The notes beneath the pieces are model-generated. The model ran no database searches. It saw only the letters and a list, made by a program, of their open reading frames with translations, and had not been told where the DNA came from. Positions 5,998 through 54,111 of a stretch of DNA of 64,000 nucleotides are shown piece after piece. Where the stretch lies: NCBI GenBank assembly GCA_028583605.1, contig CM053327.1, positions 39,204,522 through 39,268,521 of the forward strand, written 5' to 3'. Both the position numbers and the translations under genes were made by a program. Origin of the DNA: Dastarcus helophoroides. Its lineage: Eukaryota; Arthropoda; Insecta; Coleoptera; Bothrideridae. Position 1 is the stretch's first letter. The number at the start of each line of letters is the position of its first letter.

Positions 5998-6025
5998 TCA
6001 TAGGTAGCTGAACTGAGTTGGATAT

Positions 6026-6068
6026 ACCAAACTGACGAGATCTAACAAGATCGAAACCGGTATTCGGT
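6026..6068 (+). ncRNA. Hammerhead ribozyme A1
   Basis: Stem I 5' strand ACCAAA (6026-6031), catalytic box CTGACGA (6032-6038), stem II GATC-TAACAA-GATC (6039-6052), GAAA (6053-6056), short palindromic stem III completing ACCGGT, cleavage base A at 6062, stem I 3' strand TTCGGT (6063-6068). Only one stem I pair is lost compared with the consensus TTTGGT. All core nucleotides of the known type I hammerhead are in place. Confidence 0.85.
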
Positions 6069-6402
6069 TTCCAAACTTCGAATCTAATAAATGTTCAAAC
6101 CTATTGGTCTGTGCATTATAGAATCCTTGTCTTCTGGGAACTCTCCTAGAGAGCAACCGCTTCGCTAGGTGGCAGTGTTTCAACTGTTGGTAGTTCAGCT
6201 ACCTATGATTCACTATACACGCCTGGAGGGCTGCATGAATTTGTAGTCTAGGTTGCATTCTTCTTGCAAACGACATTGTTGGCGATGGCCATAGTTTCTC
6301 TATGGACCAATAGGTGGTAGTACTAAAGAGTCACTCGCTTGACGCCTGTGATTGTTTTAGTACTTACTTGTCGGAACATTTATTAGCATTCGAGTTGGAT
6401 AT

Positions 6403-6445
6403 ACCAAACTGACGAGATCTAACAGGATCGAAACCGGTATTTGGT
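6403..6445 (+). ncRNA. Hammerhead ribozyme A2
   Basis: Fully consistent fold: ACCAAA (6403-6408) pairs with TTTGGT (6440-6445); CTGACGA 6409-6415; stem II GATC/GATC with loop TAACAG; GAAA 6430-6433; ACCGGT palindrome; cleavage base A at 6439. The two-base-pair stem III with palindromic sequence suggests cleavage as a dimer, as known for hammerheads of Penelope-like elements and newt satellite RNA. Confidence 0.9.
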
Positions 6446-6503
6446 TTCCAAACTTCGAATCTAATAAATGTTCAAACCTATTGGTCTGTGCATTATAGAA
6501 CAG

Positions 6504-11425: not shown

Positions 11426-11430
11426 GCTTT

Positions 11431-11520
11431 GGTGGAACGGACTGGTCCTTGGTTATTTTCAAAAATTGAAATACAGAACTTTCATTGTTATTTATTATTA
11501 TTATTATTATTATTTAAAAA
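11431..11520. mobile_element. Family C terminal fragment followed by a (TTA)n microsatellite
   Basis: The family C terminus ggtggaacggactggtcc and the adjoining ttgaaatacagaact are recognisable, then the sequence runs into about nine TTA repeats at 11488-11514. Confidence 0.65.
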
Positions 11521-36700: not shown

Positions 36701-39700
36701 TAGTGTTGGTCTAATTTGAGCTTTGTATAATGTTAATAGCTAATGTGAAGTACATTTTAGCTCTAAAAAGAAAGCCTAGCTTCTGAGAGGCGGATTTGGC
36801 AATGGCGCGCACATGATCGCCCCAAGAGAAGTTAGTGCCCGCATTCACTTCCAAAAATAGATAGATTAGATCCCATCGGAAGGACTTTACGGTCCATTAG
36901 TATATTTGTTGCATGATCCCTTGATGTTTTCTTAGAGAAAACCGCGGCCTGAGTTTCTAAAGCATTGAAGTCGACCAAATTGTTCTTACTCCATTCCAGA
37001 ATAATCTCGAGATCTCAATTAATTGTCTGTATCTGCTGTTTCCTTAGTTGATCTGAAGCAGCGATAGATAATGGTTTGTTGAAGAAAAAAGATGACACAA
37101 GGTTACTATCATCTGCGTAGCTGTATATAGGATTGGAAGTTGAAGCTAAGAGATTCGTTTATGTGTAACAGAAATTAGAGTAGGAGACAGAACAGACCCT
37201 GAGGCACCCCTGCGTTAATCTCAAATGTCTCTGATGGAATGCCATCGACGACCTGAAGAGATCTGTCAGCTAGAAAATTGGATATCAAATGACGGAGTCC
37301 AGGAGGTAAGACCATAAGATGTTAATTTGAACAAGAAGAGATCGGATGCCAGACTCTGTTCATTATTCCATTCTATCAAGATGTTTGTTTAATCGGTCAA
37401 TGACCTGTCCAGGCCTCTACAATGTTTCCTGGGGTTATTTATTGAAAGTTGTAGGCATAACTTTGCCTTTTTCCTATCGAGATTCTAATGAATGCGTGAA
37501 TCTGTCGGCATGTTGTTATTGACATCCATTGGGATTTAGGTTTGCGACAGATTTCCTCGTCAAGTAAGGATTTTACTGGTTGATATAGCCAAAAAAAGGG
37601 TTTGTTTCTGGTCCAACAAATTGTCCCTCTAAGACCCCTCTGTAGCCGGTTTGTCAGTGCGTGCGTTTCTCTCTTTTCCAGAATGTCCTTTGATCCATAT
37701 TAGATCAATTGCATTCTCTTGTGATAGACGTTCTAAAGCTAGGTGCCAGTTCCATACCAGCACTGAGTTTGTTTTCACATTCCTCGCGACCTTAAGGGCT
37801 GCCTGGCTCTCCGTCTTTATTTGGATATATTTTCCTGTAATGTTCAGTTGTGTCATTTGTTCGGCGCTATATAAAATTCCCAACATTTCCGCTTAAAAGA
37901 TTGTTGAGTATTTATCTAACTTAATACTGACATTTAGCACAATGGGCCCGGAAAGGGTGGCCTAAGTGCTGGCCTAAACTTTAAGCAATCCACAACGAAT
38001 CCAGAATCCACTTACATTTAGGTTCAGGTCTTTCGAGAAGATTTCTGTTCCAGGGGTACATGTAATAATCTTACATTCAATCGTTAGGTTGACGGTTGTT
38101 TTCCCCGTTATAATCAGACGTCTAGCGTACTCTTAGAGCTCTCTTACTAACACTTTAGAGGTCTGTATTTTTGTCCTTCTTTGAAATCGACTTCTTGTTA
38201 ATTGCTCATGATTTCTTACTTGGAGATCCTAACATTTTATCATTTTAAAGGTTTGGTGTTGTTTCTTTCTGAGAAAAAGCTAGGTGGCAGCTTCATACCA
38301 GCACTGTTTTTACATTCCTCAGAGCCTTATGGGTTGCCTGGGTGTGCGGCTTAGTTATATTTCCTGTAAGGTTCAGCTGCTTCATTTGCTTGGCGCTGTT
38401 TAAAATTCCCAAAATTTTTGCTTCGAAGATTGTTAAATATTTATCTAATACTTACATTTACCATGAAGAATAAACTTACCTTTAGGTTCAGGTTGTTCGA
38501 AAAGATTTCTGTTCCCGTGCCCGTATTTGTTTTTAAACCATCCGTGTACATACTTACGTCTGGTATCCCTGCCTATAGTTCATCCATTTTTATGGGGTAG
38601 GATTTTGTAAAGTTATGATGGTCCATCAGCTCACCCAGAGTGGGCGCCTTTTGAAGTGCCCCCTCTATTATGCGCTGTTGCCTTCACCATTTTACCTGCT
38701 GTATTCAACATTTCTCCCGCTCGCAAGCTTGTATCGCCCCCTTAAGAAATATATCAAGAGGTGGCAGACACAAGATCGCCGTCCACTAGCTGATGTTGGA
38801 GTAGACTTCATTGCTCCTATCACCACCAGAGCAGTATATATGTAGACTCTTAAAAATACGTCGTGATGTAATTCATGTAGTCTCAGACATACTCGTTTAT
38901 TACAAAACAGTGTTTATCTGGCCAGGAAAAGGGTTGGTTCTGATTCAATGAATTGTCCCTCCGAATTCTTTCAGGCCAGTTTGTCAGCGCGTTTGTTTCC
39001 CTCTTTTTCAGAATGTTTTTTGATCCATATTAGATCAATTGCATTCTCATGGAATCGACGTTCTAAAGCTAGATGGCGGTTCCATCCGTACTGTTATTAT
39101 TTAATTGAATAAGGCTGCTTAAGAGAGCAAAAACAGTTTTTATTGAACAACAATCTACATAAACGTTCACAATATACCTTCGATACGCTACAATTACTAT
39201 CGATTCTGTAATATTAATGAGAATCGTCGTATCTCATCACTTTCTTTTGCTTCCTTTTACTTTAGTACTCATAAGTAGATGTTGCCTTTCAGAAAAACGT
39301 GATGGGCACTTTTAGTTTTAAAAATTTTACATCCTGAAATAATTCTAAGTAAATCGATCGAGCTGATTTACTTGCGGTAGATAAGTGGCAAGAGATAATA
39401 AATAATATAAAGCAGAATCCTCTCTCTATTAATATGTCGATTTTACTCCCACTTTGCTTTCAGCTGAAAGATCCCACGTACAGCCCTTCTAGAGTGAGCG
39501 AAAAAGTAAAACAGATGTACTTGGATTACATGGAGGATATCGCCATCATTTTTGGCGCCACTCCACGCATTGCGAGAAAAGACCAGAAAGAAGTCTTGGA
39601 TTTAATACTGAAATTAGCTAAGGTAATACTATGCACTACTTGCCTACGACATTGTTGGCGATGGCCATAGTTTCTCTATGCACCAATAGGTGGTGGTACT

Positions 39701-42700
39701 AACAGTCACTCGCTTGACGCCTGTGAATGTTTTAGTACTTACTTGTCGGAACATTTATCAGCATTCGAGTTGCATATACCAAACTGACGAGATCTAACAA
39801 GATCGAAACCGGTATTTGGTTTCCAAACTTCGAATCTAATAAATGTTCAAACCTATTGGTCTGTGCATATTAGAAGTTAATACTAGTTAAAATAGATAAC
39901 TCGCTTTTAAAATTAAACTTTACAAGCAAGTTGATTATTTCTGCGAAATTTTTATTATAAAGATTAGTAAAAAGTTACATCAAAAGAGATAACATTGCAT
40001 GAAAAGTTCGAGTTATTTGATCTGATATCAAAGCTTCATTTTCTTTCCTTCTAAATGGCAGCAGAAACGCAAAAGGTTGTAATCTCGAGCTGGCAGACTC
40101 AAAGTTATGCATACACCAAAACAACTTAATTAGAATATTTTATTAGATTTCAGAGGAAGCTCAATCCGCTAATGGATCTTATTTATACAATCCTCTCACT
40201 GTGTCTGAATTGGAGTACAAATTTCACAGCATTGACTGGAAGGAATACATTAACGGTGTACTGGCGCCCTCGGCTTCGATCAATTACGATGACATCATTT
40301 CCGCCAGAGATCCGGTTTACTTGAGAAACTTGGAATACGTCCTACAAAAGACCAGAAAGAGGTGAGACGGTGACAGCGTTTGCGAACGAGGGGTAATCGC
40401 TTGATCCACTTACAGGACCCTGGCTAACTTCATAGCGTGGAATACTTTGCAGCAATTGGTGCATTTCTTACCTTCTGAGATAGTCGAGAAAACCTATGAA
40501 TATTACGAGAAGGTCAATGGGAGGGTAATCAGGGACCCGCGGTGGAAGACATGTGTGAAGGCTGTCGAAGAACGGTAATGATTAGTAGCAGCGTAAGTCG
40601 CTGCTGACGTACTGTTTACGCACTGGAAGACGTACCGGGTTCGCTTCCTATGTCTGACAGGGTGTTATGCTTATAAATTAAAATTAACTACCTACGTCGG
40701 CTTAAAAAAAAAAGAAAAAGGTTCTTGGTACATATTTATAATCTTAGTCTTTGAAAATAAAAATGGAAAGCTAAAGAAAGAAACACGTGGCAACAAATTT
40801 TCCAAATTTCTAACCCTTTAACAATATTTTTTTTTCTTTCTTTAAACTGTGGCTTCTTTTAGAAATTTAGTAGTTAAGCTTATATTTGAATTTATATTTT
40901 AAATTCAAAACCTATAAGCTTAACATTTGAGGATTTCCTAAAATAAAATTCAAATTTCAAATAGACATTTTCATTAACGACGTTCTTACGTCTTACGTCG
41001 ACGCTCTTACGTCTTTGACCTCGTAATGGATTTGTGGGCTTTTATTATCGTCCGTGTAACAGTTATTATTTACATATTTGCTTAATGTTACTGTATTCGA
41101 TTTTGTGTTTTGTATATTGTTGTTCATTTTTTAATAGCAACTCTAAATCCCGTTTTGTTTATTGAGGCCATGTAACAGGGGGACTGGATTCTGGATTCTA
41201 GATTCGTTGTGGGTTGCCTAAAGTTTAGGCCAGCACTTAGGACACCCTTTCCGGGCCCATTGTGCTATCCCCATAATTGAGGTGTTCTTGGTCATTAATT
41301 CAGCTACCCAATCTTGTTGAGAAACTGAAGAACGTCCCTTGGATGCGCCCCTCTCAAACTGGCCACACTAGGCCAGAAGTCCCCCAGCGTGGATCCTCTG
41401 ATTGATGCTAGTGCCGGGCAGTGACACATCACGTGCTCGACACTCTCATCTTCTTCTAAGCACTCTCTGCAGAGGGACTAATTCATCACGTGTAAAATCT
41501 CATTATTTTCACTCCATTAAGAGTTCAATTTCTAAGCGAACACCTACGTCATGTAAGGAAACTAGGTGCCAAATTTTTCAAAGATTTAGTAATGAGTGGG
41601 TTGTATTTGTCTTTTAAATATTACTAATAAAGTTTGTGACTGCAAGAAACTGATATCAAGTAGGCTTATATTAAATAGTTTTATCCATCACACCTCTTTA
41701 AGTACACTCCACTCCCAAAGGGTAGCTCTACAGTAGACTCCGCTAAAGTTGAACTCGCCGTACTGGATCAACCGTTAAAGTTGCTACTCCCCGTAATCTC
41801 TACCATTGTCGAAAAATATATATGTTTTATTGCTCCTTGCGCGCTTGAGTGGGTCATTCAAAAGTGGCGCTAAAACTCGGAAGTCGAATTCGTTGTTCGA
41901 AAGTTAGAGTGGGGGAATATCCGCGCAACTTTAACGATTGTATCGTGACAACCTTAACGAGCGTGTAACTTTAACGAGCGTGTAACTTTAACGGGCGCAA
42001 CTTTAGCGGGAGTCGACTATGCCTTTGGAGCACAGCGACTGGGAGACAAAAATAATGATAGATGGCGATGAAAAGCGTCTTATACGATGATAAGATAAGG
42101 AGGGAGGCGTTGTAGGGTAACAAATTCCAGAGTAAATATTATTTTCTCTTCTAGCATGGGAATGGTAGTCTCTGCTGTATACTTGGAACATAACTTTGAT
42201 GAGGATAAAAGGCATAAAATCATGCAACTAATAAGGAATATCAAAGAACAATTTAACTATAATTTGCAGCATTTTGACTGGTTGGACGAAGAGACTAAAA
42301 AGATAGCGACTGGAAAGTTATTGACAAGCGTGGAGCACGTCGCTACCTACAAAGAGCTTATTGACAGCTTGGAAGAAAACCACATGTACGAAAATGTAAA
42401 CTTCGCCACCTCAATCCCAAAAAAAATTTCAACATACCTATCCCATTGCAGGTAGAAGTCTTCGAAAACGAATTTCTTATGTCGGCATTAAACTTGGAAT
42501 TCGCCAACGTCAACAAAGAATTCGGTAAACTTCGCGATAGAGCAAAAGACGACTGGTATCTGCAACCGAGCTTCCTCTCCGGTATGGAAGTTATATTTGT
42601 TCCGAAAGAAAATACCTTGAGTAAGTAAATTCTCTATTAATTTCCGGCCCGCGACCGGATTAAATTAACTCGAGAAAATATTTACCGACTCCGCTAACCT

Positions 42701-45700
42701 GCATTATAGTGGCTCAGTTTAAAATGGGCGTCGCATAAAGCGATTCATAATGCGGGCGTCCGCTGTCGTGCTTTTATTGAAAAGCTTGGACGTTTATTTC
42801 GTCTAGATTTCTCGTTATTTAAAATTTGGTCTACAATTTTAAAACATCTACGACTTGTTGATTTAAACTCAAAACAATTCCACCACTCAAAATTTGGCTC
42901 CTCAAAATTTAAAATACAACCATTCTTTACTATTCTGTAGTTTCAGTGGGTGACTGAATGACCAAGTCATCTTATAAAAGCTGATAGACATTTGTAGGCA
43001 AAATGAGGCAAATGAGTGATAGATAAATTGAGGAGTTGGTCTCTAAGCAGTTCCCGAACAAACCTCAAATTGGTCTACGAACTTTGTCAGATGTTTACAT
43101 GTGCATAATTCAGCCTAACTAGTTCTTGAGACATCATGGCAAGTGAGACAGCCACCTGTGGAACCGCTGCTTGTTCACAGGAAGTAGTAGAATAAGCAGC
43201 ATTGTCTTCAGACAATGACAGAACTTTGTCTAGATACTAGTTCCGGAGTTTTGTTCTAGGGGTGTACTAGCCATAACAGATATGATAAAATGAACCCATA
43301 ACGGAAGGTTCAAGTAGTAAGCTAATGTTAGGTAATCGACGCCAAATCCAGAACCCAAACAAATTTTTAACTTATTGCATATGAATTTGCTGTAACTTTA
43401 GATTTAAAAAAAGTCTTGATACAATGAAGATATGATGACAAAATGGAGATATTGAAAATTCCCTCATTATTAATGACACTTTTTGTAAAGAAGCGCTAGG
43501 CAGATCTCATTGGTTTGATCAGTCCGTACGCAGTACGTCCAAACCATTAATAGATTAATTTTCCCCATATTAGAGCCATGATAGTGCCGCAGTGCGTTAA
43601 AATATCTCAATCGTTACTCTCCGTAATCATCCATCACTGAATTGTGGCGAACGACATGTACATTTAACGCTACAACCTATCAAACTCTGCTGGAGAAAAT
43701 GTAGAAACCGAATTAAACAGATAATATGCCAATGCTATCATAACTATTTTGAATACTACTGACCTTAAAGTCGAGACCTAACCAGCTGGACTAAGTGGAC
43801 ACATTTGGTATATGACAAACATATTCAGCATTTCAAAAACAATTGTCAATATTCTTAGAAGCATTCCTACTGCAATTTTTAATATTTGTTTGCATTGAAA
43901 ACACATCTTTATTAACAAAGTTATTAGTTTTGATTAAATAAAAGTCCAATCGCCGAGGATCTTTGGCAGTCAACCAGAGACTAAAGTTTTCATTAACAAT
44001 TGGTTTTTGTTTACTCGACAAGTACACATCGTCGACAGTCTTTTTCAAGACTCTTCCAAATTTGACTAAATCACTATCCCAACTTCTTTGTTCGACAAGA
44101 AATTTATCAGTCATCGACTGCTTTCTTGCCCATTTTCTCGTCCTAAATTTTTTATGGCTTCGACGTTAAATTTTCGACCGAAGACCAACACCATTTACAG
44201 CAGCACGTTAGTCATTTTTTGTGTATGTATTTCGTTTCATTGATTGTTTAAGATGCTAAAAATTCCTACTTAAACATTAAAAAAGTTCTCCGATATAAAC
44301 GCAAAAATGCAAGCAGTCACATATTTGATTTATGTTGAAGTATTCAACAATCATTGACATACAAATCTTGTATTCTTAAACCAAGAGAGATTAAAAAACA
44401 TAGCAGAGGTTGCCCTAATACGTTTCGATGGCCAAATTATCATCTGCAGAGAGATACTTCAACAATCGTTTAACAAAATGGTTAAGTCTGGATTCTAGAT
44501 TCGTTGTGGGTTGCCTAAAGCTTAGGCCAGCACTTAGGCCACCCTTTCCGGGCCCATTATGCTATCCCCGTGATTGAGGTGTCCTTGGTCATTCATTCAG
44601 CCACCCAACCTTGTTGAGAAACTGAAAAACGTTCCTTGGATGCACCTCTCTCAAACTGGCCACACTAGGCCAGAAGTTTCCCAGCGTGGATCCTCTGATT
44701 GATGCTGGTGCTGGACAGTGACACATCACGTGCTCGACACCCTCATCTTCTTCTAAACACCCTCTGCAGCTCGGGTCGTTTATAATTCCCATTAAGTCTA
44801 ATTTCTGTAATACAATATTACATTAAACTTATGTTTGTCGTTATAATACATTTAAATACATTATAAAGTTAAGACAAAATTTGACAAGCTAATATGATTT
44901 AATTTATGGAATACAATGTTAGCAACATTCTACAAGTGATTAATCTCCTGCAATTATCGACGTGAACCATTTTAAATCTTTGGAGTTTATGGAAGCTGCT
45001 TAATTCGCTTGAGGCGAAGTTTATCCAAGTTCGAGAAGACTTATAAATTGTGTACAAGATTTCTAACACATCAGTGAAGAGTTTGAACGTGCAAATCAAG
45101 ACAAGACTATGTTTGTTAAGCACCTTGTCGGGAATCAATCAAAGGCTTAGGCAAAGCGGTTTATCGTTGTTTATCATTAGAGCGGCGCCTCATTAGAATG
45201 GACCAGGAAGTTTCAAACAATGTACGATATTTGTAATAGGTTTCCATACTGACATACTAATCAATGTTAACTCATTAGATAAGTTAAGCTCATTTGTTAA
45301 AGAAAATTGCTACGTGTATACTGATACAATGATTATACAGTAAAGTTATATGAAAAAAGTAATAGATAAAAAAAGTTTATAACCAGTTTCTCTTTCTAAA
45401 ATACTTGAAATACTAAGATAATGGTAATAGAAAATACAATTATAATAAATAAATTCATTTTGCTTAAAATCAAATGTAATATTTTTTACTATTGAACAGT
45501 ACAGTTTTTGGGAAACTAGTGGAGAATTTTTATCCGACGTTATTCTGATCAATTTGTTTTTAGGATTCCCAATCGGCGTTATGACCGAATTGTACTTCGA
45601 AAAGGAGCGCCCTCATTACCTAAATTACGGAGCTCTGGGTTCCGTAGTGGCGCACGAAATTTCCCACGTTATAATTGAGGCTGAATATAAAGAACTTGGA

Positions 45701-46218
45701 GGTGATTTAAGGAGCTGGTGGAGCGTGAACAGTCTTATGAAATACGAGGAGAAGCGGCGATGTCTCTCTTCTCGGTATCAACAGCTGACGGCAAACTTGT
45801 TATCGCCGGTAAGTGCTCTTGTTTAACTCACTCGCCTATTCGCAATGTGACAATTGCAGTTTATTTAACGTTTTTTTAGATGAATACTTCTATAACGATA
45901 GAAGAAGATATGGCGGATCTTGCGGGGATGAAAGTGGCTCACGACGCTTATCTGACGTGGATTAGCGAGCACGACAGCGAACCGGTGCTTCCGGGTCTGC
46001 CTTACACGGCGCGACAACTTTTTTGGATATCGGCAGCGATTCATCGATGTTCCGCCCAGTCGACGGAAACTCTGGAAAAATATATCGCTAATTATAGGCA
46101 TTCACCTGAGAAATTCCGCGTTAATGGCCCGTTGCAAAATATCGTCGGTTTTTCTAACGACTTCGGTTGCACGTACGGCGATTATATGAACCCTAAAGAA
46201 AAATGTTTCATTTGGTGA
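15767..46218 (+). CDS. Neprilysin-like M13 zinc metallopeptidase, ten exons
   Basis: Spliced coding exons: 15767-15777, 28373-28509, 28562-29103, 39464-39622, 40156-40361, 40416-40574, 42155-42395, 42452-42620, 45564-45808, 45880-46218. They give 735 residues (human neprilysin has about 750). Layout: short cytosolic tail, signal-anchor about 27-49, extracellular M13 domain. HEISH is at 572-576 and EDMAD at 632-636 (E632 as third zinc ligand), with H697 and R703 equivalent to the C-terminal substrate and transition-state residues, ending CFIW. The family is known as type II ectopeptidases that cleave small peptides. Two usual boxes are changed: NAFY is replaced around 528-531 (SGME), and HGFD after HExxH is replaced by HVII. 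Reduced or altered activity is therefore possible. Phases agree at every junction. Exon 1 is the least certain part. Confidence 0.85.
15784..16980. other. Intron 1, mostly unique sequence
   Basis: No gene seen. About 16300-16480 shows family-alpha phrases such as ttgaagttgtcattt. The rest has no match elsewhere in the window. Confidence 0.4.
16985..17075 (+). tRNA. tRNA-derived sequence (SINE head or tRNA pseudogene)
   Basis: A-box-like TAGCTTAGTTG near 16990 and a perfect B box GGTTCGAACCC near 17046, in order and at a plausible spacing for a pol III promoter. The T stem pairs (ACTGG with CCCGT, one mismatch), but I cannot close a standard D arm or acceptor stem, so a functional tRNA is unlikely. 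Confidence 0.4.
17213..17345. mobile_element. Family C half-element
   Basis: Starts with a variant of the ggaacggactgatccttgg terminus and contains the hammerhead-like motif on the minus strand with mutated core positions (ATGAAGA instead of CTGAAGA, AAAA instead of GAAA). It is followed at about 17371 by a second, longer copy. Confidence 0.65.
17371..17598. mobile_element. Family C foldback element
   Basis: Left terminus ggaacggactggtccttgg and right terminus ending tatttcaatttttgaac are inverted copies. The centre holds a hairpin around tgatagcttggctatcga, with the catalytic CTGAAGA box lost on the + strand. It sits in direct repeat with the preceding copy. Confidence 0.7.
18016..21890 (+). 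repeat. Macrosatellite, three units of about 1.3 kb
   Basis: Unit starts fall near 18016, 19312 and 20831. Shared landmarks include gaaatagaaaaatatacag near 18302, 19597 and 21123, and a ggggcgctttgttgttgta landmark near 18987 and 20515 with a variant near 21822. The second unit is longer by about 220 bp because of the family C insertion at 20088-20298; removing it restores about 1.3 kb. Each unit ends in a palindrome-rich tcttgctcttgc segment that is greatly expanded after the third unit. Confidence 0.85.
20088..20298. mobile_element. Family C foldback element (211 bp) inserted in the macrosatellite
   Basis: Present only in the middle macrosatellite unit, and flanked by a 9-bp duplication ATCGAAATG (20079-20087 and 20299-20307). 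Inverted termini. The + strand holds CTGAAGA, hairpin GACAGC-TTA-GCTGTC and GAAAC near 20198-20226, but the palindromic stem III is lost. Confidence 0.8.
21890..23790. repeat. Palindromic minisatellite array with 403-bp higher-order repeat
   Basis: About thirteen copies of a 100-160-bp unit. Each holds ttcttgcagcatgaacaaga (or a close variant), a reverse-complementary partner and a cttgctaaaagcactt linker. Blocks of subunits repeat at an offset of about 403 bp (landmarks 22463, 22866, 23270). Because unit and complement resemble each other, long frames are open on both strands (for example 23102-23899 plus and 23045-23767 minus); I regard these as repeat artefacts, not genes. Confidence 0.85.
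23900..24490. other. Intron 1, no recognisable feature
   Basis: A/T-rich unique sequence following the minisatellite. A 61-codon frame at 24156-24341 has no identifiable domain. Confidence 0.35.
24496..24542 (-). ncRNA. Hammerhead ribozyme relic D, one core substitution
   Basis: Read on the minus strand: stem I GCAATG with CAGTGC (five of six pairs), box CTGACCA (consensus CTGANGA, so G8 is C), stem II GCTC-AAAGGA-GAGC, GAAA, palindromic stem III within ACATCGATGT, cleavage triplet GTC. All elements sit in hammerhead order and spacing; the G8 change should abolish or strongly reduce cleavage. It is unlike families A and B in sequence. Confidence 0.6.
24848..25110. mobile_element. Family C foldback element with a hammerhead-like motif in each arm
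   Basis: Inverted arms of about 100 bp (left to about 24945, right from about 24973), so the same motif is read on the minus strand in the left arm and the plus strand in the right arm. Right arm: CTGAAGA 24984-24990, one extra T, hairpin GATAGC-TTG-GCTGTC 24992-25006, GAAA 25007-25010, palindrome ACGCGT, then T as cleavage base. Stem I is only about four pairs. The extra T departs from the canonical core, so activity is uncertain. Confidence 0.65.
25527..25872 (+). mobile_element. Solo LTR (346 bp), plus orientation
   Basis: Begins TGTAAC, ends GCAACA, flanked by ATAT on both sides (25523-25526 and 25873-25876), consistent with a 4-bp target duplication of a Gypsy-like element. A TATA-like ctatatgagg lies near 25692 and AATAAA near 25819. 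No internal retroviral genes adjoin, so it is a solo LTR. A diverged copy in opposite orientation lies at 27338-27682. Confidence 0.8.
26030..26105. repeat. Possible 3' tail of a dispersed retroelement
   Basis: The phrases agacggacgaacctacc, aaggattccgg and tacgaaaccctgaaaaa resemble, from memory, a widespread arthropod LINE/SINE tail ending in a ggttccg...tacggaaccct-like sequence. There is no second copy in this window, so this is weak. Confidence 0.35.
26770..27175 (-). mobile_element. LINE family Y 3' fragment
   Basis: Near-identical in order to 35866-36150 (minus strand), where the translation reads ELIGLIPPRARFLRRTR-like residues typical of the C-terminal part of CR1-like reverse transcriptases. 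No open frame of length remains. It supplies an uninterrupted reference for the MITE insertion at 41731-42017. Confidence 0.65.
27338..27682 (-). mobile_element. Solo LTR (345 bp), minus orientation
   Basis: Reverse-complement relative of 25527-25872, flanked by ATAT (27334-27337 and 27683-27686). It begins TGTTGCGGGC on the + strand. The other terminal dinucleotide has mutated from CA to TA. Shared landmarks include gcggccgc and the aagcttgat-side end near the terminus. Confidence 0.75.
27899..28082. mobile_element. Family C foldback element
   Basis: Inverted termini ttgaaatacaaatcttgtcc and its complement near 28035. The minus strand keeps the ATCGAAACGCGTTAGAGC side of the hammerhead-like motif but has lost most of the catalytic box. 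Short similar flanks (about caattga) may be a target duplication. Confidence 0.65.
28373..28509 (+). CDS. Neprilysin-like gene, exon 2 (membrane anchor)
   Basis: Acceptor ttatttcag, donor GTAAGT at 28510. It encodes EEPVYKTWWYNRSKLERRL followed by a hydrophobic stretch (residues about 27-49). A basic-aromatic WW..R..LE+RL segment before the helix is usual for insect neprilysins. The exon starts with the last base of a codon and ends with one base. Confidence 0.85.
28562..29103 (+). CDS. Neprilysin-like gene, exon 3 (M13 N-terminal domain)
   Basis: Residues 50-230. A 52-nt intron precedes it. It includes the CTSSSC, PCDDFYRFACGSF and AKKFYRACMNE motifs characteristic of the start of the M13 ectodomain, plus an NET glycosylation sequon. 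The donor GTAAGT at 29104 is in phase 0; the open frame runs on to 29301, but that tail is intron. Confidence 0.9.
29104..30280. other. Intron 3, 5' part, no recognisable feature
   Basis: A/T-rich unique sequence. A minus-strand frame at 30040-30246 has no recognisable motif. Confidence 0.4.
30281..30960. promoter_or_regulatory. GC-richer intronic block, possible regulatory element
   Basis: Clearly less A/T-biased than the flanking intron, non-repetitive within the window and without an open frame. Such islands in insect introns are often conserved non-coding elements. I have no motif-level proof. Confidence 0.25.
31303..31523. repeat. Two tandem copies of an about 110-bp sequence
   Basis: Both copies begin ctctgtccgctctgca and end with an atttaatcattttgtaattta phrase; offset about 111 bp. 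Confidence 0.8.
31640..33330 (-). mobile_element. LINE with RNase H domain (family Z), broken
   Basis: Reading from about 33330 down to 31640: end of the RT domain (KYLG-like, near 33275), connector ITYASLVWRPK...RYACLGITCA (33121-32866), RNase H with TEIHAIELCAYECLRRS and SDSQAAIK (about 32410-32260) and WVPGYKE, and a C-terminal zinc-knuckle-like CCFC...EHVLGKC (ORF 32074-31691). Frames are interrupted, so it is inactive. An RNase H domain after RT places it in the R1/Jockey-type non-LTR group. A foreign K/E-rich segment sits inside at 32432-32577. Confidence 0.85.
32432..32577 (+). pseudogene. PEVK-like coding fragment inserted in the LINE
   Basis: On the + strand an open frame rich in Lys, Glu, Pro and Val (for example KPEVPKDKSTVKEKPGKKKK) interrupts the LINE RNase H region. 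The LINE sequence on both sides is duplicated (about 32395-32431 and 32578-32622, both starting agtttgaargacagtt). Composition resembles the PEVK spring region of insect titin-like proteins, so it may be a captured exon piece. The source is inferred. Confidence 0.45.
33410..33930 (+). mobile_element. LINE C-terminal fragment (family W)
   Basis: It matches, in opposite orientation, the block at 58095-58575. Readable pieces include YACPKLARCRYNLTREETLG, the cysteine-containing tail typical of RNase-H-type LINE polyproteins. Several frameshifts and stops. Confidence 0.65.
34113..34386. mobile_element. TA-flanked MITE copy 1 (274 bp)
   Basis: Terminal inverted repeats containing CCCGCTAAAGTTGCGC and GCGCAACTTTAGCGGG. 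TA on both sides (34111-34112, 34387-34388). Several subterminal TTAAAGTT-type direct repeats could bind a transposase. The TA target places it with Tc1/mariner/pogo-type elements; no transposase is encoded. Confidence 0.8.
34648..34922. mobile_element. TA-flanked MITE copy 2 (275 bp), part of a segmental tandem duplication
   Basis: Same element as copy 1 in the same orientation. The 180 bp following each copy (34387-34565 and 34923-35102) also match, so copy 2 arose by tandem duplication of element plus flank (offset about 536 bp) rather than by independent insertion. Confidence 0.8.
35590..35860 (-). mobile_element. LINE family X C-terminal fragment
   Basis: Minus-strand frame with SSCRECLEEDKSI...CHCLSLASI, the CxxC...H...C tail of RNase-H-type LINEs. 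Better-preserved copies lie at 41195-41480 and 44490-44800. Confidence 0.75.
35866..36150 (-). mobile_element. LINE family Y 3' fragment
   Basis: Minus-strand translation includes QELIGLIPPRARFLRRTRQ and continues, through one stop, to a region ending ELPSHGTCY-like. Parallel copy at 26770-27175. Confidence 0.7.
36151..36262. repeat. Long hairpin: family F unit joined to its inverted copy
   Basis: Arms 36151-36204 and 36209-36262 are reverse complements over 54 bp with about three mismatches and a 4-base loop. The right arm starts at AAACACTTTTAGTAG, the sequence that immediately follows the hammerhead-like cut site in the minus-strand copy at 46897-46995. Confidence 0.85.
36263..36700 (-). 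mobile_element. LINE family Y fragment in two tandem copies of about 233 bp
   Basis: Minus-strand frames contain NSIQRRAIRLIDNESLTDSL and LEHRRMVGNLSLFYKYYHG, typical of the region after the RT domain in CR1-like LINEs. The segment from the family F start to the ttcaagagacc phrase is repeated in tandem (about 36205-36430 and 36431-36660). Confidence 0.75.
36701..37320 (-). mobile_element. LINE family Y reverse-transcriptase domain fragment
   Basis: Minus strand encodes, with frameshifts, INAGVPQG, LSPTLFLLHIN and YADDSN, i.e. the central RT motifs. It continues into the C-terminal pieces at 35866-36700, so this is one largely collinear, broken LINE interrupted by family F sequence. Confidence 0.75.
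37560..37900 (-). mobile_element. LINE family X RNase H fragment
   Basis: Minus-strand frame 37886-37629 reads TESQAALKVARNVKTNS, then LIWIKGHSGKERNARTDKPA. These are the RNase H acidic and histidine-containing motifs. Shorter relatives of the same segment lie at about 38270-38430 and 38935-39090. Confidence 0.8.
37935..38015 (+). mobile_element. LINE family X 3' end, opposite orientation
   Basis: The gggcccggaaagggtggcc phrase and the following caatccacaacgaatccaga are the reverse complement of the end of the family X copies at 41195 and 44490. Confidence 0.75.
38270..39090 (-). mobile_element. Scattered RNase H fragments of LINE family X with a possible integrase scrap
   Basis: About 38270-38430 and 38935-39090 repeat parts of 37640-37900 (tccatattagatcaattgca is shared). 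Between them, on the + strand at about 38770-38845, the frame RRPLADVGVDFIAPI resembles the start of a BEL/Pao-type integrase domain. This last call is weak. Confidence 0.5.
39464..39622 (+). CDS. Neprilysin-like gene, exon 4
   Basis: Residues 231-283, phase 0 at both ends. Acceptor ttgctttcag, donor GTAATA. It encodes LKDPTYSPSR, which follows ILS of exon 3 as LDQPSLGLPSR-like sequence does in the family, then YLDYMEDIAIIFGA. The preceding intron is 10.4 kb and full of mobile-element relics. Confidence 0.9.
39640..39870 (+). mobile_element. Hammerhead repeat family A, single truncated monomer in a neprilysin intron
   Basis: Begins at tacgacattgttggcgatgg and ends at ggtctgtgcatattagaa, i.e. 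the same right end as the 5998-6503 insertion. It lies entirely in the 533-nt intron between exons 4 and 5, in sense orientation. Confidence 0.85.
39778..39820 (+). ncRNA. Hammerhead ribozyme A3, intronic
   Basis: ACCAAA (39778-39783) pairs perfectly with TTTGGT (39815-39820). CTGACGA 39784-39790, stem II GATC-TAACAA-GATC 39791-39804, GAAA 39805-39808, palindromic ACCGGT, cleavage base A at 39814. No deviation from the hammerhead consensus is visible. Being in the sense strand of an intron, it would be transcribed with the neprilysin pre-mRNA. Confidence 0.9.
40156..40361 (+). CDS. Neprilysin-like gene, exon 5
   Basis: Residues 284-351 plus two bases of 352. To stay in frame the acceptor must be the AG at 40154-40155 (two bases after a CAG that would shift the frame). 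It encodes SANGSYLYNPLTVSELEY and ISARDPVYLRNLEYVL, as in other M13 enzymes. Donor GTGAGA. Confidence 0.85.
40416..40574 (+). CDS. Neprilysin-like gene, exon 6
   Basis: Residues 352-404 with split codons at both ends, after a 54-nt intron. It encodes TLANFIAWNTLQQLVHFLP and DPRWKTCVKAVEER; the W..C motif is usual here. Donor GTAATG at 40575. Confidence 0.9.
40585..40665 (+). repeat. Possible tRNA-related SINE scrap
   Basis: GGGTTCGCTTCC near 40636 resembles a B box, and agcagcgtaagtcgctg upstream could be a D-arm remnant. Only suggestive. Confidence 0.2.
41195..41480 (-). mobile_element. LINE family X 3' fragment
   Basis: Same order of landmarks as 44490-44800: tggattctagattcgttgtg, then gggcccattgtgct, then the minus-strand zinc-knuckle coding region ending near ctctgcaga. 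Confidence 0.75.
41700..42145 (-). mobile_element. LINE family Y fragment interrupted by a MITE
   Basis: Flanking pieces 41706-41730 and 42018-42145 join into the sequence seen uninterrupted at 26770 and 35866 (ccactcgcaaagggta, then ttatgctttcaaag and gatagatggcgatgaa). The insertion lies in the neprilysin intron between exons 6 and 7. Confidence 0.75.
41731..42017. mobile_element. TA-flanked MITE copy 3 (287 bp), inverted relative to copies 1 and 2
   Basis: Starts CAGTAGACTCCGCTAAAGTT and ends with the inverted ACTTTAGCGGGAGTCGAC, with TA at 41729-41730 and 42018-42019. The empty site is visible in the other family Y copies, confirming a TA target duplication. Confidence 0.85.
42155..42395 (+). 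CDS. Neprilysin-like gene, exon 7
   Basis: Residues 405 (split) to 485. Acceptor tctcttctag. MGMVVSAVYLEHNF matches the family's G-x-A-x-x-x-(x)xF segment, and FDWLDEETKKIATGKL is a strong M13 signature (WMDEETR.KA..K in relatives). Donor GTAAAC at 42396; the open frame beyond is intron. Confidence 0.9.
42452..42620 (+). CDS. Neprilysin-like gene, exon 8 (altered NAFY region)
   Basis: Residues 486-541 plus one base, after a 56-nt intron. It encodes KLRDRAKDDWYLQPSFLSGM then EVIFVPKENTL. Alignment by the DDW and the following FP.G places the usual NAFY substrate-binding motif at residues about 528-531, here SGME. Donor GTAAGT. Confidence 0.85.
43520..43930. repeat. Dispersed repeat G, copy 1
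   Basis: Very similar in sequence and order to 46408-46830. Both start gtacgcagtacgtccaaacc and run through cattcctactgcaatttt. Identity looks high along about 400 bp. The two copies are direct repeats flanking the last two neprilysin exons. Confidence 0.85.
43833..44170 (-). pseudogene. Unidentified coding-like fragment
   Basis: A minus-strand frame of 93 codons (44114-43833), extendable upstream with RTRKWARKQS-like residues, contains FLVEQRSWDSDLVKFGRVL and LWLTAKDPRRLDFYLIKT. Codon use and composition look protein-like, and the last third is repeated within repeat G at 46718-46820. I cannot assign a family; a transposable-element protein remnant is likely. Confidence 0.35.
44356..44457. 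mobile_element. Family C half-element with 13-bp target duplication
   Basis: Flanked by TTCAACAATCRTT (44343-44355 and 44458-44470). Minus strand: CTGCAGA box, a weakened hairpin GATAAT-TTG-GCCATC, GAAAC, palindrome-like ACGTAT. Degenerate. Confidence 0.7.
44490..44800 (-). mobile_element. LINE family X 3' fragment
   Basis: Minus-strand frame 44792-44589 reads SCRGCLEEDEGVEHVMCHCP then ASIRGSTLGNF, an intact C-terminal zinc-knuckle region, followed by the family X 3' end. Confidence 0.8.
44801..45563. other. Intron 8, 3' part, no recognisable feature
   Basis: Unique A/T-rich sequence up to the acceptor tgtttttag. Confidence 0.4.
45564..45808 (+). CDS. Neprilysin-like gene, exon 9 (zinc site HExxH)
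   Basis: Residues 542 (split) to 623. FPIGVMTELYF then LNYGALGSVVAHEISH: the catalytic HEISH is intact. In active M13 enzymes the next residues are GFD; here they are VII. It continues to LRSWWSVNSLMKYEEKRRC, matching the WW...S...F..+..C pattern. Donor GTAAGT. Confidence 0.95.
45880..46218 (+). CDS. Neprilysin-like gene, exon 10 (last exon)
   Basis: Residues 624-735 and stop TGA, after a 71-nt intron. EEDMADLAGMKVAHDAY corresponds to the ENxAD zinc-ligand motif (Asn replaced by Asp). RHSPEKFRVNGPLQN carries the conserved His and Arg. The protein ends YMNPKEKCFIW, the CxxW typical of M13 enzymes. Confidence 0.95.
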   Translation: MNTSITIEEDMADLAGMKVAHDAYLTWISEHDSEPVLPGLPYTARQLFWISAAIHRCSAQSTETLEKYIANYRHSPEKFRVNGPLQNIVGFSNDFGCTYGDYMNPKEKCFIW

Positions 46219-47089: not shown

Positions 47090-47300
47090 GATACCAAAGG
47101 CGAAACTCTTCTGAATTGAAAATTGGTACAAAGGATAAGAAAGTTTAGACAGAAGAGCACGGTAACTCAGTATGTCCACCATACCAGAGGCGAAACTCTT
47201 TCTTCTTCTTCAGAAGAGATCTTCTTTGAGACGGTTCCAATCTCGGAAGAAGTATATCCTGTACTGACTCCTGGCCCGTGGAAGCCTTCGTTATCATTTT
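47090..47300 (+). repeat. Short duplication and family F fragment
   Basis: cacggtaactcagtatgtcc occurs at about 47069 and 47158 with similar downstream sequence. About 47214-47300 is a family F unit (ggaagaagtatatcctgtac). Confidence 0.6.
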
Positions 47301-48600: not shown

Positions 48601-48633
48601 GTTAGATTTTAATTTAAATAAAGTTTAACCAAG

Positions 48634-49412
48634 CTGAGATAATAAGCCTTGTATATACGAATATATACAAGTTTATTACGATGCAATTGAATTCTAATTT
48701 CATTGGAATCTAATGAAAATTAGACAGCAATTGCAAAGTTCACGTAGATAAAGCAAAGCTTGTATCACGGGTTGCATCGCAACATCCATAGATACAAACG
48801 TCCTCAGCGTGACTTTACTTTCATCTAGTTTTAACAAATGACCAATTAAATGTTCTGTAATTAAACAGTTAAACGTGCTTAAAATTGAAAATATGTACAA
48901 CCGCAATTTTAAGCACGTTTGACTGTTTAATTACAGAACATTTAATTGGTCATTTGTCAAAACTAGATGAAAATAAAGTCACGCTGAGGACGTTTGTATC
49001 TATGGATGTTGCGATGCAACCCGTGATACAAGCTTTGCCTCATCTACGTGAACTTTGCAATTGCAGTCTAATTTTCATTTGATTCTAATGAAATTAGATT
49101 TCAATTGCATCGTAATAAACTTGTATATATTCGTATATACAAGGCTTATTATCTCAGCAGAGAGCAATGCTTCAATTAGCATGTAGCGAAAATGTTTGCG
49201 TAATAAACAGTTAAAAGTCAGTTACAAGTCACCCAATGGAGGTTTGCTCTCTTGGATACTTATACGACTGACTAACAGCTTTAAATTGGAAGTGTACCAT
49301 GCTGACGAGGCCAAGGAAGGCCGAAACTAGTCTATGGTTGCGGTTGTACGTATTTTCAATTTTAAGCACGTTTAACTGTTTAATTACAGAACATTTAATT
49401 GGTCATTTGTCA
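48634..49412 (+). mobile_element. Hammerhead element family B (779 bp) with inverted 5' copy
   Basis: Flanked by a 13-bp duplication AAGTTTAACCAAG (48621-48633, 49413-49425). The first 260 bp (48634-48893) are the reverse complement of 48905-49157. The plus-oriented unit then continues to a hammerhead at 49296-49338, and after the cut site the start of the unit is repeated (AATTTTAAGCACG at 48905 and again at 49358, period 453 bp). Layout: inverted truncated copy, full unit, ribozyme, partial second unit. Frames on both arms translate alike only because of the palindrome. This layout is known from Penelope-like elements and retrozymes; membership is inferred. Confidence 0.85.
49296..49338 (+). 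ncRNA. Hammerhead ribozyme B
   Basis: Stem I ACCATG (49296-49301) with TATGGT (49333-49338, one G-T wobble), box CTGACGA 49302-49308, stem II GGCC-AAGGAA-GGCC 49309-49322, GAAA 49323-49326, palindromic stem III ACTAGT, cleavage triplet GTC with cut after 49332. Every core position agrees with the consensus. Confidence 0.9.
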
Positions 49413-49439
49413 AAGTTTAACCAAGTATTAATTTCTACT

Positions 49440-50214: not shown

Positions 50215-50835
50215 AGACGGGATCTAACAAGATCGAAACCGGTATTTGGTTTCCAAACTTCGACTCTAATAAATGTTCAAACCTTATTGGTCTGTACATA
50301 TTAGAATCCTTGTCTTCTGGAAACTTTCCTAGAGAGCAACCGCTTCGCTAGGTGGCAGTGTTTCAACTGTTGGTAGTTAAGCTACCTATCATTCACTATA
50401 CACGCCTAAAGGGCTGCATGAATTTGTAGTCTAGGTTGCATTCTACTTGCATACGACATTGTTGGCGATGGCCATAGTTTCTCTATGGACCAACAGGTGG
50501 TAGTACTAAGAATCACTCGCTTGACGCCTGTGAATGTTTAAGTACTTACTTGTTAGAACATTTGTTGGCATTCGAGTTGGAATATACCAAAGTGACGACA
50601 TCTAACAAGATCGAAACCGGTATTTGGTTTCCAAACTTCGAATCTAATAAATGTTCAAACCTATTGGTCTGTGCATATTAGAATCCTTGTCTTCTAGGAA
50701 CTTTCCTAGAGAGCAACTGCTTCGCTAGGTGGCAGTGTTTTAACTGTTCGGCTACCTATGATTCACTATACACGCCTGGAGGGCTGCCTAAATTTGTAGT
50801 CTAGGTTGCATTCTACTTGCATCCAGTATCGATTT
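50215..50835 (+). mobile_element. Hammerhead repeat family A, about 1.7 monomers, ribozymes inactivated
   Basis: The first monomer lacks the catalytic box (starts at about 50215). The second, at 50586-50628, has GTGACGA in place of CTGACGA and a broken stem II pair (CATC/GATC). The rest of the monomer matches 6026-6403. Confidence 0.85.
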
Positions 50836-51030
50836 GAATCTCAATGCAGATGACGTCGATGCATCTTTTGCTAATCTTTTAAGATGAGTGCGCTTGAAAA
50901 TGCCAGTTCTGCTGGCGAAATATGTATCGCGTAATTATTTATTTAATTGCCGATGTGGTAAAGAGGTGAAACCTTCTTTGGACTTAATCACAAGCCACAC
51001 TATTTAGTTCAGTGCTTTAGTTCTACTTGC

Positions 51031-52290
51031 ATAATAAAGAACTCAACAAAATTAAGTCTGAATTTTTGTTTGTGTTAAATTTTCGAAAAATCAGGAATTA
51101 ATGTTGCCAAGTCATTAACGGTTTGTTACAAATTATTTCGCTTTAAAAAAAACCAAATATTTTTAAAAGACCAAAATATTATCAGCATCAAATTTAACAT
51201 AAACCAAACCTTAAAACTAATAATAACAAAAACTTGTTTTTTTTTTTGGTGGAACGGAGTGATCCTTGGTTATCTTCAAAAATTGAAATACAGGAGACAA
51301 GATTTAAATTTCAATAAAATATTTGTTTTATGTTTTGTCGGAGGTAAGGTAAAATGGTACAATTTTTTGTACGAAACATTCTGGGAGATTAAAACTAATT
51401 CCTTCAATACTAATAATTAATACTTAACTGTTAAATAATTCGTAAAAATGCTAATGCACAGAACAGTAGGTCTGAGCATTTATTAGATTCAAAGTTTGGA
51501 AACCAAATACCGGTTTCGATTTTGTTAGGTCTCGTCGTATACCAAACTAACGAGATCTAACAAGATCGAAACCGGTATTTGGTTTCCAAACTTCGAATCT
51601 AATAAATGTTCAAACCTATTGGTCTGTGCATATTAGAATCCTTGTCTTCTGGGAACTTTCCTAGAGAGCAACCGCTTCGCTAGGTGGCAGTGTTTTAACT
51701 GTTGGTAGTTCAGCTACCTATGATTCACTATACACGCCTGGAGGGTTGCCTAAATTTGTAGTCTAGGCTGCATTCTACTTGCATAATAAAGAACTCAACA
51801 AAATTAAGTCTGAATTTTTGTTTGTATTAAATTTTCGAAAAATCAGAACTTAATGTTGCCAAGTCATTAACAATTTGTTACAAATTATTTCGCTTTAAAA
51901 AAAAAACAAATATTTTTAAAAGACCAAAATATTATCAGCATCAAATTTAACATAAACCAAACCTTAAAACTAATAATAACAAAAACTTGTTTTTTTTTGT
52001 GGAACGGAGTGATCCTTGGTTATCTTCAAAAATTGAAATACAGGAGACAAGATTTAAATTTCAATAAAATATTTGTTTTATGTTTTGTCGGAGGTAAGGT
52101 AAAATGGTACAATTTTTTGTACGAAACATTCTGGGAAATTAAAACTAATTCCTTCAATACTAATAATTAATACTTAACTGTTAAATAATTCGTAAAAATT
52201 CTAATGCACAGACCAGTAGGTTTGAGCATTTATTAGATTCGAAGTTTGGAAACCCAATACCAATTTTGATCTTGTTAGATCTCGTCGTAT
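51031..52290. repeat. Tandem duplication with a 752-bp period
   Basis: aaagaactcaacaaaattaa occurs at 51046 and 51788 and the sequence matches along about 500 bp. Each copy contains a family C scrap (ggaacggagtgatccttgg) and an inverted plus direct family A junction (51494-51583 and about 52225-52333). Confidence 0.8.
51494..51583. ncRNA. Family A hammerhead in inverted pair, mutated
   Basis: The plus copy 51541-51583 has all elements but CTAACGA (G5 to A), which should inactivate it. Immediately to its left a reverse-complementary copy of the same ribozyme region forms a hairpin with it. Confidence 0.7.
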
Positions 52291-52333
52291 ACCAAACTGA
52301 CGAGATCTAACAAGATCGAAACCGTTATTTGGT
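52291..52333 (+). ncRNA. Hammerhead ribozyme A7, stem III weakened
   Basis: ACCAAA/TTTGGT stem I, CTGACGA, GATC-TAACAA-GATC and GAAA intact. Stem III reads ACCGTT instead of ACCGGT, losing one pair. An inverted copy of the ribozyme region lies just upstream. Confidence 0.7.
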
Positions 52334-53844
52334 TTCCAAACTTCGAATCTAATAAATGTTCAAACTTATTGGTCTGTGTATTAGAAACCTTGTCTTCTGG
52401 GAACTTTTTCCTAAAGAACAAGCACTTTGCCAGGTGTCAGTGTTTCAACTGTTGATGGTTCAACTGGAGTTGAAGTTAAAGTTCAGCTACCAATGATTCA
52501 CTATACACACCTGGAGGACTGCATGAATTTGTAGTCTAGGTTGCATTCTACTTAGATACGACATTGTTGGCGATGGCCATAGTTTCTCTATAGGATCAAT
52601 AGGTAGCGGTAGCACTGACAAGTCACACTCTTGACATCCGTGAATTCTTTAATATTTACTTGTCGGAACATTTGTTAGCATTCGAGTTGGATATACCAAA
52701 CTGACGAGATCTAACAATTTGGTTTCTAAACTTCGAATCTAATAACTGCTTAAACCTGTTGGTCTGTGCATTAGAATCCTTGTTTTCTGGGAACTTTTTC
52801 CTAAAGAGCAACCGCTTCGCCAGGTGTCAGAATTGTTGATAGTTCAACTGGAGTTGAAGTTGAAGTTCAGCTACCTATGAGTCACTATGCACACCTGGAG
52901 GGCTGCATGAATTTGTAGTCTAGGTTGCATTCTACTTGCATACGACATTGTTGGCGATGGCCATAGTTTCTCTATGAACCAATAGATAGCGGTAGTACTG
53001 AAAAGTCACACGCTTGACGTCCGTGAATTCTTTAGTAATTAGTTGTCGGGACATTTGTTAGCATTCGAGTTGGATATACCAAACTGACGAGATCTAACAA
53101 TTTGGTTTCTAAACTTTGAATCTAATAACTGTTTAAACCTGTTGGTCTGTGCATTAGAATCCTTGTCTTTTGGGAACTTTTTCCTAAAGAGCAAGCACTT
53201 CGCCAGGTGTCAGTGTTTCAAGTGTTGATAGTTCAATTGGAGTTGAAGTTAAAGTTCAGCTACCAATGATTCACTATACACACCTGGAGAGCTGCATGAA
53301 TTTGTAGTCTAGGTTGCATTTTACTCAGATACGACATTGTTGGCGATGGCCACAGTTTCTCTATGGACCAATAGATAGCGGTAGTACTGACAAGTCACAC
53401 GCTTGACGTCCGTGAATTCTTAAGTACTTCCTTGTCGGAACATTTGTTAGCATTCGAGTTGGATATACCAAACTGACGAGATCTAACAATTTGGTTTCTA
53501 AACTTCGAATCTAATAACTGTTCAAACCTGTTGATCTGTGCATTAGAACCCTTGTCTTCTGGGAACTTTTTTCCCAAAGAACAACCGCTTCGCCAGGTGT
53601 CAGAATTGTTGATAGTTCAACTAAAATTGAAGTTCAGTTACCTATGATTCACTATGCACACCTGGAGGGCTGCATGAATTTGTAGTCTAGGTTGCATTCT
53701 ACTTACATACGACATTGTTGGCGATGGCCACAGTTTCTCTATGGACCAATAGATAGTGGTAGTACTGAGAAGTCACACGCTTGACGTCCGTGAATTCTTT
53801 AGTACTTACTTGTCGGAACATTTGCTAGCATTCGAGTTGGATAT

Positions 53845-53888
53845 ACCAAAACTGACGAGATCTAACAAGATCGAAACTGGTATTTGGT
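53845..53888 (+). ncRNA. Hammerhead ribozyme A11
   Basis: CTGACGA 53852-53858, stem II GATC-TAACAA-GATC, GAAA 53873-53876, stem III region ACTGGT, cleavage base A 53882. One extra A in the 5' strand of stem I (ACCAAAA) must bulge. Probably foldable. Confidence 0.75.
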
Positions 53889-54111
53889 TTCTAAACTTCG
53901 AATCTAATAAATGTTCAAACCTGTTGGTCTGTGCATTAGAATCCTTGTCTTCTAGGAACTTTTTCCTAAAGAGTAACCGCTTCGCCAGGTGGCAGTGTTT
54001 CAACTTTTGGTAGTTCAGCTACCTATGATTCACTTTAAACGCCTGGAGGGCTGCATGCATTTGTAGTCTAGGTTGCATTCTACTTGCATACGTAAATATG
54101 CTACTAAATCA

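Follow-up and report, generated by a model that had tools for sequence, protein, structure and literature searches.

How does a short repeat that seems to encode no protein come to be inserted in a genome, often as two copies facing away from a common junction? The question is raised by a 64,000-nt stretch of DNA (the window, positions 1–64000; C3:39204522-39268521 in a genome of 538,885,228 bases and 50 contigs) that contains copies of a ~380-nt repeat, family 1, together with an insertion of a second repeat, family 2. The original prediction described a retrozyme-like non-coding retroelement with monomers of about 380 bp. This assignment is well supported by dispersed insertions with target-site duplications, a type I hammerhead ribozyme, a GC content of 43%, the lack of a long open reading frame (ORF) and strong self-pairing of the RNA; the family 1 monomers of the window measured 377–393 nt. 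We propose that families 1 and 2 are animal-type retrozymes, of the kind without long terminal repeats (non-LTR), and that family 1 was primed at two fixed internal sites from both target strands, likely by a Penelope-type enzyme. We consider this reading highly probable.

Insertion ends of family 1

According to exact pattern searches, the family 1 core occurs at least 1495 times in the forward and at least 1505 times in the reverse orientation of the genome (at least 3000 in total), and a reversed control pattern had no match across it. Exact patterns had no match in contig sets of viruses and prokaryotes, a result of little weight given what those sets contain. For end mapping, loci were painted with the tripled family 1 monomer. 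The first set comprised 60 loci, less four that overlapped, and yielded 89 blocks, of which four were cut by a locus end and 85 were kept; 15 additional loci, held out, yielded 19 blocks. The combined 71 non-overlapping loci, carrying 104 copies, all lay within 5.4 Mb of one contig (C1, 0.46–5.83 Mb) and had been selected for an intact ribozyme core.

The outer ends of the copies, which are 3' with respect to the sense RNA, clustered at two sites. In the first set, 59 of 126 fell at monomer positions 54–72 and 47 of 126 at 198–219, with 13.7 expected by length. These intervals were fixed after the ends of the first set had been viewed; they contained 22 of the 26 outer ends of the held-out set, and 128 of 152 overall. 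The two sites, S1 and S2, are located at +61 and about +206 from the predicted ribozyme cut. For four insertions in the window (contig C3), five of six outer ends were at S1 or S2. Inner ends at head-to-head junctions fell within the intervals in 7 of 82 cases in the first set (8.9 expected) and 1 of 14 in the held-out set (8/96 combined). The 5' ends of one-strand copies showed a weaker excess in the first set, 12 of 44 (~4.8 expected by length), and numbered 1 of 12 in the held-out set. One-strand copies L017, L022, L055, L007, L025, L027 and L054 span S2 to S1, with the 5' end on the other start site.

The 85 blocks of the first set comprised 41 head-to-head (minus-then-plus), 22 plus and 22 minus copies. 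With seven further head-to-head copies among the 19 held-out blocks, the total was 48/104; tail-to-tail (plus-then-minus) copies numbered 0/104. Where both outer ends of a head-to-head copy could be assigned, one was S1 and the other S2 in 33 of 36 (28/31 in the first set, 5/5 in the held-out set; binomial probability against one half, 1.1e-7). The same site occupied both outer ends in 3/36, and an end was unassigned in 12/48. This alternation suggests that, as a rule, each strand of a break was extended from a site of its own. The predicted circular fold pairs S1 (58–62) with 195–199, beside S2, with a probability of ~0.45, an arrangement in which the two sites may lie opposite each other.

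Exact flank repeats of at least 8 bp were present at 36 of the 104 copies, as compared to 0.9 expected from mismatched flanks, and repeats of at least 10 bp at 30 (0.1 expected). For head-to-head copies, the frequency of repeats of at least 8 bp was 25/48. A satellite spread by DNA recombination alone would not generate such duplications or fixed ends, which refute it genome-wide as a general account, and we regard it as very improbable. It suits only the later history of one array in the window (52291–54092), in which three junctions share an identical 14-nt deletion and which adjoins a 750-bp flank duplication.

An ordinary long interspersed nuclear element (LINE) with twin priming could have supplied the enzyme instead. 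LINEs also give 5' inversions and duplications of such length, which counts for this alternative. Moreover, 15-bp duplications of Nematostella are compared with those of LINEs (PMC4918200), and the window contains a non-LTR type remnant at 31691–32525 (− strand; zf-RVT, E 2.3e-4, below cut-off). However, three features are not predicted by twin priming: an inverted arm whose outer end shares the two sites of the 3' ends, the 33/36 alternation and the 41 inverted copies among 85. A poly-A tail was also not seen, by eye, at the window copies. The ends found genome-wide thus raise the Penelope-type reading and lower that of a LINE mobiliser, which we consider quite unlikely.

Self-priming (snap-back), which PMC3846280 suggests for Penelope, might also create head-to-head copies, whether it acts on one complementary DNA (cDNA) or on an antisense template. 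In favour of this, near-symmetric junctions exceeded chance: the two arms had inner ends within 20 nt of each other at 14 of 48 junctions (mean of shuffles 6.5; 9/2000 shuffles as high). By contrast, these ends were more than 40 nt apart in 29/48, which disfavours self-priming as the main route, and a difference between the outer ends, found in 33/36, is not something that self-priming predicts. As the principal explanation it appears rather improbable, but it may be the source of a minority of the head-to-head copies.

Hammerhead motifs and the predicted RNA

The original prediction placed the same hammerhead arrangement at six positions (6026, 6403, 39778, 51541, 52291 and 53845), one in each full monomer. 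We searched the window with the 6026–6402 monomer and found 11 sense-strand ribozyme sites of family 1 and two inverted partial ones. On alignment, two of the 11 are perfect, one has a single stem mismatch, two are doubtful and six are broken; a hammerhead in every full monomer is thus incorrect for the window. Motifs are present at all six positions, but the arrangement is exact only at 6403 and 39778. The sites at 50216, 50586, 52695, 53078 and 53467, and the family 2 motif at 49296, had not been noted before. Cut positions were predicted by the NUH rule. The sites are:

6403–6445, + strand: hammerhead, perfect type I core, predicted cut after 6439
6026–6068, + strand: hammerhead, TTCGGT with a single stem I mismatch, predicted cut after 6062
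39778–39820, + strand: hammerhead, exact arrangement, perfect
51541, + strand: CTAACGA, altered core, broken
52291, + strand: stem III ACCGTT, an inverted arm in place of outer stem I, doubtful
53845, + strand: A inserted before CTGACGA, ACTGGT, doubtful
50216, + strand: insertion begins within the ribozyme, broken
50586, + strand: GTGACGA, broken
52695, 53078 and 53467, + strand: a common 14-nt deletion takes out GAAA and stem III, broken
49296–49338, + strand: family 2 hammerhead, intact, stem III ACTAGT, predicted cut after 49332
24479–24551, − strand: possible decayed third hammerhead family, CTGACCA (relaxed Rfam scan, 28.5 bits, E 0.0056)

Core positions of the window ribozymes were numbered for comparison with a C3G change that, as PMC11167929 reports, abolishes cleavage of the ribozyme studied there. 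The minimum free energy (MFE) fold of 6391–6457 contains stems I and II (z −2.6). In the three junctions with the common deletion (52695–52725, 53078–53108 and 53467–53497), the missing 14 nt terminate at the predicted ribozyme cut, with a 1-nt ambiguity. This could reflect chance, recombination or a religation scar.

We then applied a full descriptor to the whole window (CTGANGA; stem II of 4–6 bp with a loop of 4–12; GAA; stem III of 6–20 nt, A...T, at least 3 pairs; H17; five of six stem I pairs). This descriptor, composed only after the motif had been seen, matched four intact type I cores, with CTGACGA at 6032, 6409, 39784 and 49302, and had no match in 200 dinucleotide shuffles of the window. 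A simpler pattern, CTGACGAN{6,30}GAAA, occurred six times (0.84 expected), one of the six belonging to family 2. When the four descriptor matches were aligned, 4 of 13 pairs were altered on both sides and 98.1% of cells paired (2/500 shuffles equal), with three of the four rows from family 1, such that this is in effect a single comparison. Scanning the window with Rfam at gathering thresholds gave no match, which is the one point in favour of chance matches to a short consensus. In a relaxed scan, Hammerhead_HH9 (RF02275) matched the six originally named places with 31.5, 31.5, 31.0, 24.5, 23.0 and 22.3 bits; even the top score (best E 5.8e-4) missed the gathering score of 52 bits, and the family 2 hammerhead gave no match. 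The models originally suggested for this check, RF00163 and RF00008, were absent from the output, which keeps the best clan member only. Chance matches are nevertheless ruled out by the descriptor and shuffle counts and by the genome-wide pattern counts (at least 3000 core matches against none for the reversed pattern), with the both-side pair changes also counting against them; we consider them vanishingly improbable. The candidate at 24479–24551 was not accepted as a third hammerhead, as its core, CTGACCA, fails the descriptor and its fold is no better than that of shuffles.

Family 2 is unrelated to family 1, and all three stems of its hammerhead differ from those of family 1. Its monomer, of 453 nt and 36% GC, slightly exceeds the 150–450 bp range of animal retrozymes, and the outer ends of its copy, at +79 and 278 of the monomer, are again two different places.

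The monomers of both families are predicted to be strongly folded. The circular MFE of family 1 (6063–6439) was −130.5 kcal/mol, as compared to −91.9 (standard deviation 5.2) for 100 shuffles (z −7.5; 69% paired), and that of family 2 was −140.2 against −95.3 (standard deviation 5.7; z −7.8). The remaining family 1 monomers of the window gave z of −4.9, −5.7, −3.1, −3.8 and −2.7. For 60 random 377-nt windows with 20 shuffles each, the median z was −0.5, and the three lowest started at 48788 (family 2), 6069 (the family 1 monomer) and 22643 (a satellite near 22 kb). The loop-less, palindromic stem III, together with published cases, suggests ribozymes working in pairs. Two-copy folding yielded other intermolecular pairings, and the expected paired hammerhead was absent from it. 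A stem III without a loop would be a simple possible reason for circles to survive while tandem transcripts are cut.

Same-strand arms exceeded 377 nt in 45 of 152 cases, with a maximum of 1449 nt painted with monomer sequence, from which we infer that the template was either circular or a tandem RNA. Since insertions end at +61 and +206 instead of at the cut, reverse transcription did not simply read the cut linear monomer. Arms 99–100% identical to the window monomer (L004, L046 and L049) indicate that family 1 was probably active recently.

The length of the arms also bears on the possibility that these are solo or orphan copies of a terminal repeat (pLTR) of 377 nt, belonging to an autonomous Penelope-like element. 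Penelope elements do have head-to-head repeats, 8–10 bp duplications, partial tandems, one-sided extension and hammerheads in the repeat (PMC3846280, PMC11167929). However, full monomers adjoin each other with no intervening ORF, the painted arms reach 1449 nt, and the longest stop-free sense stretch in the tripled monomer is 45 amino acids for family 1 (87 for family 2). Stem I is also long, with an internal loop, as compared to the minimal Penelope variants described in PMC7229834. We consider it unlikely that the repeat is such a pLTR.

Window insertions and their surroundings

The insertions in the window and associated features are:

5997–6500, + strand: i1, 1.3 monomers with two hammerheads (6026–6068, 6403–6445), preceded by an 18-nt inverted piece
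6063–6439, + strand: full monomer, cut to cut, 377 nt
39632–39877, + strand: i2, from near S2 to S1, with one hammerhead (39778–39820)
50216–50822, + strand: i3, begins within a ribozyme; second ribozyme, 50586, GTGACGA; right end at S2
51447–51784, + strand: i4, forward part joined head-to-head to an inverted arm; ribozyme 51541, CTAACGA
52197–54092, + strand: i5, inverted arm from S1, then ~4.5 monomers to S2 (54089–54092)
51021–52270, + strand: tandem duplication, 750 bp, comprising flank, inverted arm and the start of i4/i5 (families D5, D7 and D9, 92–97%)
48634–49411, + strand: family 2 insertion with a 453-nt monomer; a forward part of 507 nt joined head-to-head to an inverted arm

In i1, 5997–6014 is the reverse complement of 6192–6209 and the right end is at S1 (+61). 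Both i1 (486 nt) and i3 (607) are longer than one monomer, and no flank duplication was found at either. The right end of i2 is 39873–39877, according to the reading of its duplication; its flanks are AAGGTAATACTA and AAGTTAATACTA at 39620–39631 and 39874–39885, respectively. Within the window the family 1 duplications are weak: equally good repeats occurred for 68 (i2) and 168 (i5) of 3000 random place pairs. The family 2 insertion, the arms of which are 96% identical over 255 nt, is flanked by a 14-bp repeat, AAAGTTTAACCAAG, at 48620–48633 and 49412–49425, a length attained by 9/3000 random pairs.

An M13 peptidase gene harbours insertion i2 in sense orientation, in the intron between exons 39464–39622 and 40147 onward. 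The first of these exons is open, with splice sites placed by eye, and had no Pfam match on its own. ORFs 28489–29301, 42099–42455, 45449–45826 and 45880–46218 matched the M13 peptidase domain. Exon 45880–46215 had 11 protein matches, the best at 63%; the three named ones were Rhamnusium bicolor, Molorchus minor and Callosobruchus analis (58, 56 and 54%), all Coleoptera of the Chrysomeloidea, which agrees with the insect origin originally proposed and narrows it to a beetle-like one. The insertion begins ~10 nt past the 5' splice site, and the duplicated target (39620–39885) includes the exon–intron junction and donor.

Elsewhere in the window, 21943–23782 is a satellite-like array of CTTGTCTTGTTCTTGC units and their inverted complements, open on both strands, with a strong fold at 22643. 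A second satellite, with a 295-bp unit, occupies 60279–61234 and 61745–64000 and continues past the window end. The non-LTR type remnant at 31691–32525 appeared RNase H-like by eye, in addition to its weak zf-RVT match. Hairpins at 36172–36241, 24912–25002 and 27916–28030 matched unrelated microRNA models weakly, below gathering thresholds. A microRNA identity was disregarded on those scores; the hairpins are perhaps fold-back elements similar to miniature inverted-repeat transposable elements.

A proposed route of insertion and known systems

The ends, orientation and duplications of the copies and the anatomy of the ribozymes can be read directly from the sequence; the following route would account for them, with its priming, enzyme, cutting, circles and paired ribozymes all inferred. 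A short non-coding element would be transcribed into RNA exceeding one monomer and carrying type I hammerheads, the paired ribozyme cutting tandem transcripts and sparing single circles. A reverse transcriptase provided by another element would copy this RNA into DNA, for family 1 beginning within the RNA at S1 (+61) or S2 (about +206). Both target strands would be able to prime at a staggered break of ~8–14 bp. Usually one cDNA would start from S1 and the other from S2, both extending toward the 5' side to variable stops. Joining of the two cDNAs would create a head-to-head insertion; if one cDNA were absent or short, a one-strand copy would result.

A fuller version can be suggested, in which a Penelope-type enzyme, perhaps a dimer, would hold a folded domain (~62–194) closed at its base by a helix that places S1 and S2 opposite each other, each broken strand being extended from one of them; the 14-nt array deletion would possibly be a DNA fossil of an RNA that was cut, trimmed and religated. 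We hold this version to be about evenly poised between right and wrong. If it is true, head-to-head copies are the normal product of insertion, not accidents, and the one-sided 'tail' of Penelope is the same phenomenon.

Several observations weigh against two-site priming by a Penelope-type enzyme. Exact 8-bp duplications are lacking at 68 of 104 copies, 56 of 104 are other than head-to-head, and near-symmetric junctions are in excess. The sampled loci represent a single contig and a selected core. No Penelope ORF was detected among the 19 scanned of the 53 window ORFs of at least 85 amino acids, and S1 and S2 are 145 nt apart, as compared to 30–40 bp for the Penelope tail. The predicted monomer fold shows no covariation among monomer copies: the share of paired cells, 92.3%, matched the mean of shuffles, and double changes numbered 3 against 3.4 in shuffles. 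Tandem copies within an arm shared 97 derived letters and did not share 360, over 7055 sites, counts that leave circle versus tandem RNA undecided.

Among known hammerheads, the top-scoring model here was Rfam Hammerhead_HH9 (RF02275), at 31.5 bits against its gathering score of 52. The hammerheads of Aedes aegypti (PMC3088659) are likewise from an insect and have a palindromic stem III and a proposed dimer, but retain loop III. The pDo500 repeat of Dolichopoda cave crickets (PMC2837043) is an insect tandem repeat with a hammerhead in intact and broken copies; it is satellite DNA, whereas the present repeats are dispersed insertions with duplications.

Animal retrozymes have been reported for insects, in general terms (PMC7229834), and what is new here is the insertion anatomy. 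In the literature on hammerheads, retrozymes, insects and Coleoptera, we found no paper title reporting such repeats in beetles, nor, in the retrozyme and Penelope literature, one on two-site, two-strand insertion of retrozymes; most subscription papers lay outside the coverage of both searches. The repeats share with animal retrozymes a type I hammerhead, a monomer of 150–450 bp, GC below 50%, tandem copies, duplications of more than 4 bp, strongly self-paired RNA, insect hosts and a proposed Penelope-like mobiliser (PMC7229834). They differ from the retrozymes described there in that near half are head-to-head, in the two fixed outer ends and in the loop-less palindromic stem III.

With Penelope-like elements (PMC11167929, PMC3846280), the repeats share an apparent internal start at two sites with both target strands extended, head-to-head copies, an optional tail on one inverted pLTR, 8–10 bp duplications and a hammerhead within the repeat. 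This likeness makes a Penelope-type enzyme the likely mobiliser. In PMC11167929, two adjacent sites within the RNA serve as start points for the enzyme, both target strands are extended, and the hammerhead cut is not required. That study saw no difference in start site between the strands; in the present copies the two outer ends are almost always different. Here, moreover, no ORF was found (19 of 53 window ORFs scanned), the sites are 145 nt apart instead of 30–40, and duplications are often 10–14 bp. Because of the tail length and the lack of a detected ORF, we do not class the repeats as Penelope elements.

The mobiliser of animal retrozymes is still a question, for which Penelope-like elements are a strong candidate on the basis of co-occurrence and shared ribozymes (PMC7229834). 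The origin of Penelope head-to-head copies is likewise debated, between self-priming (PMC3846280) and extension of both strands, as seen in vitro (PMC11167929). A family with thousands of copies, the ends of which record two start sites, makes it possible to test both questions directly and provides a small RNA for biochemical work.

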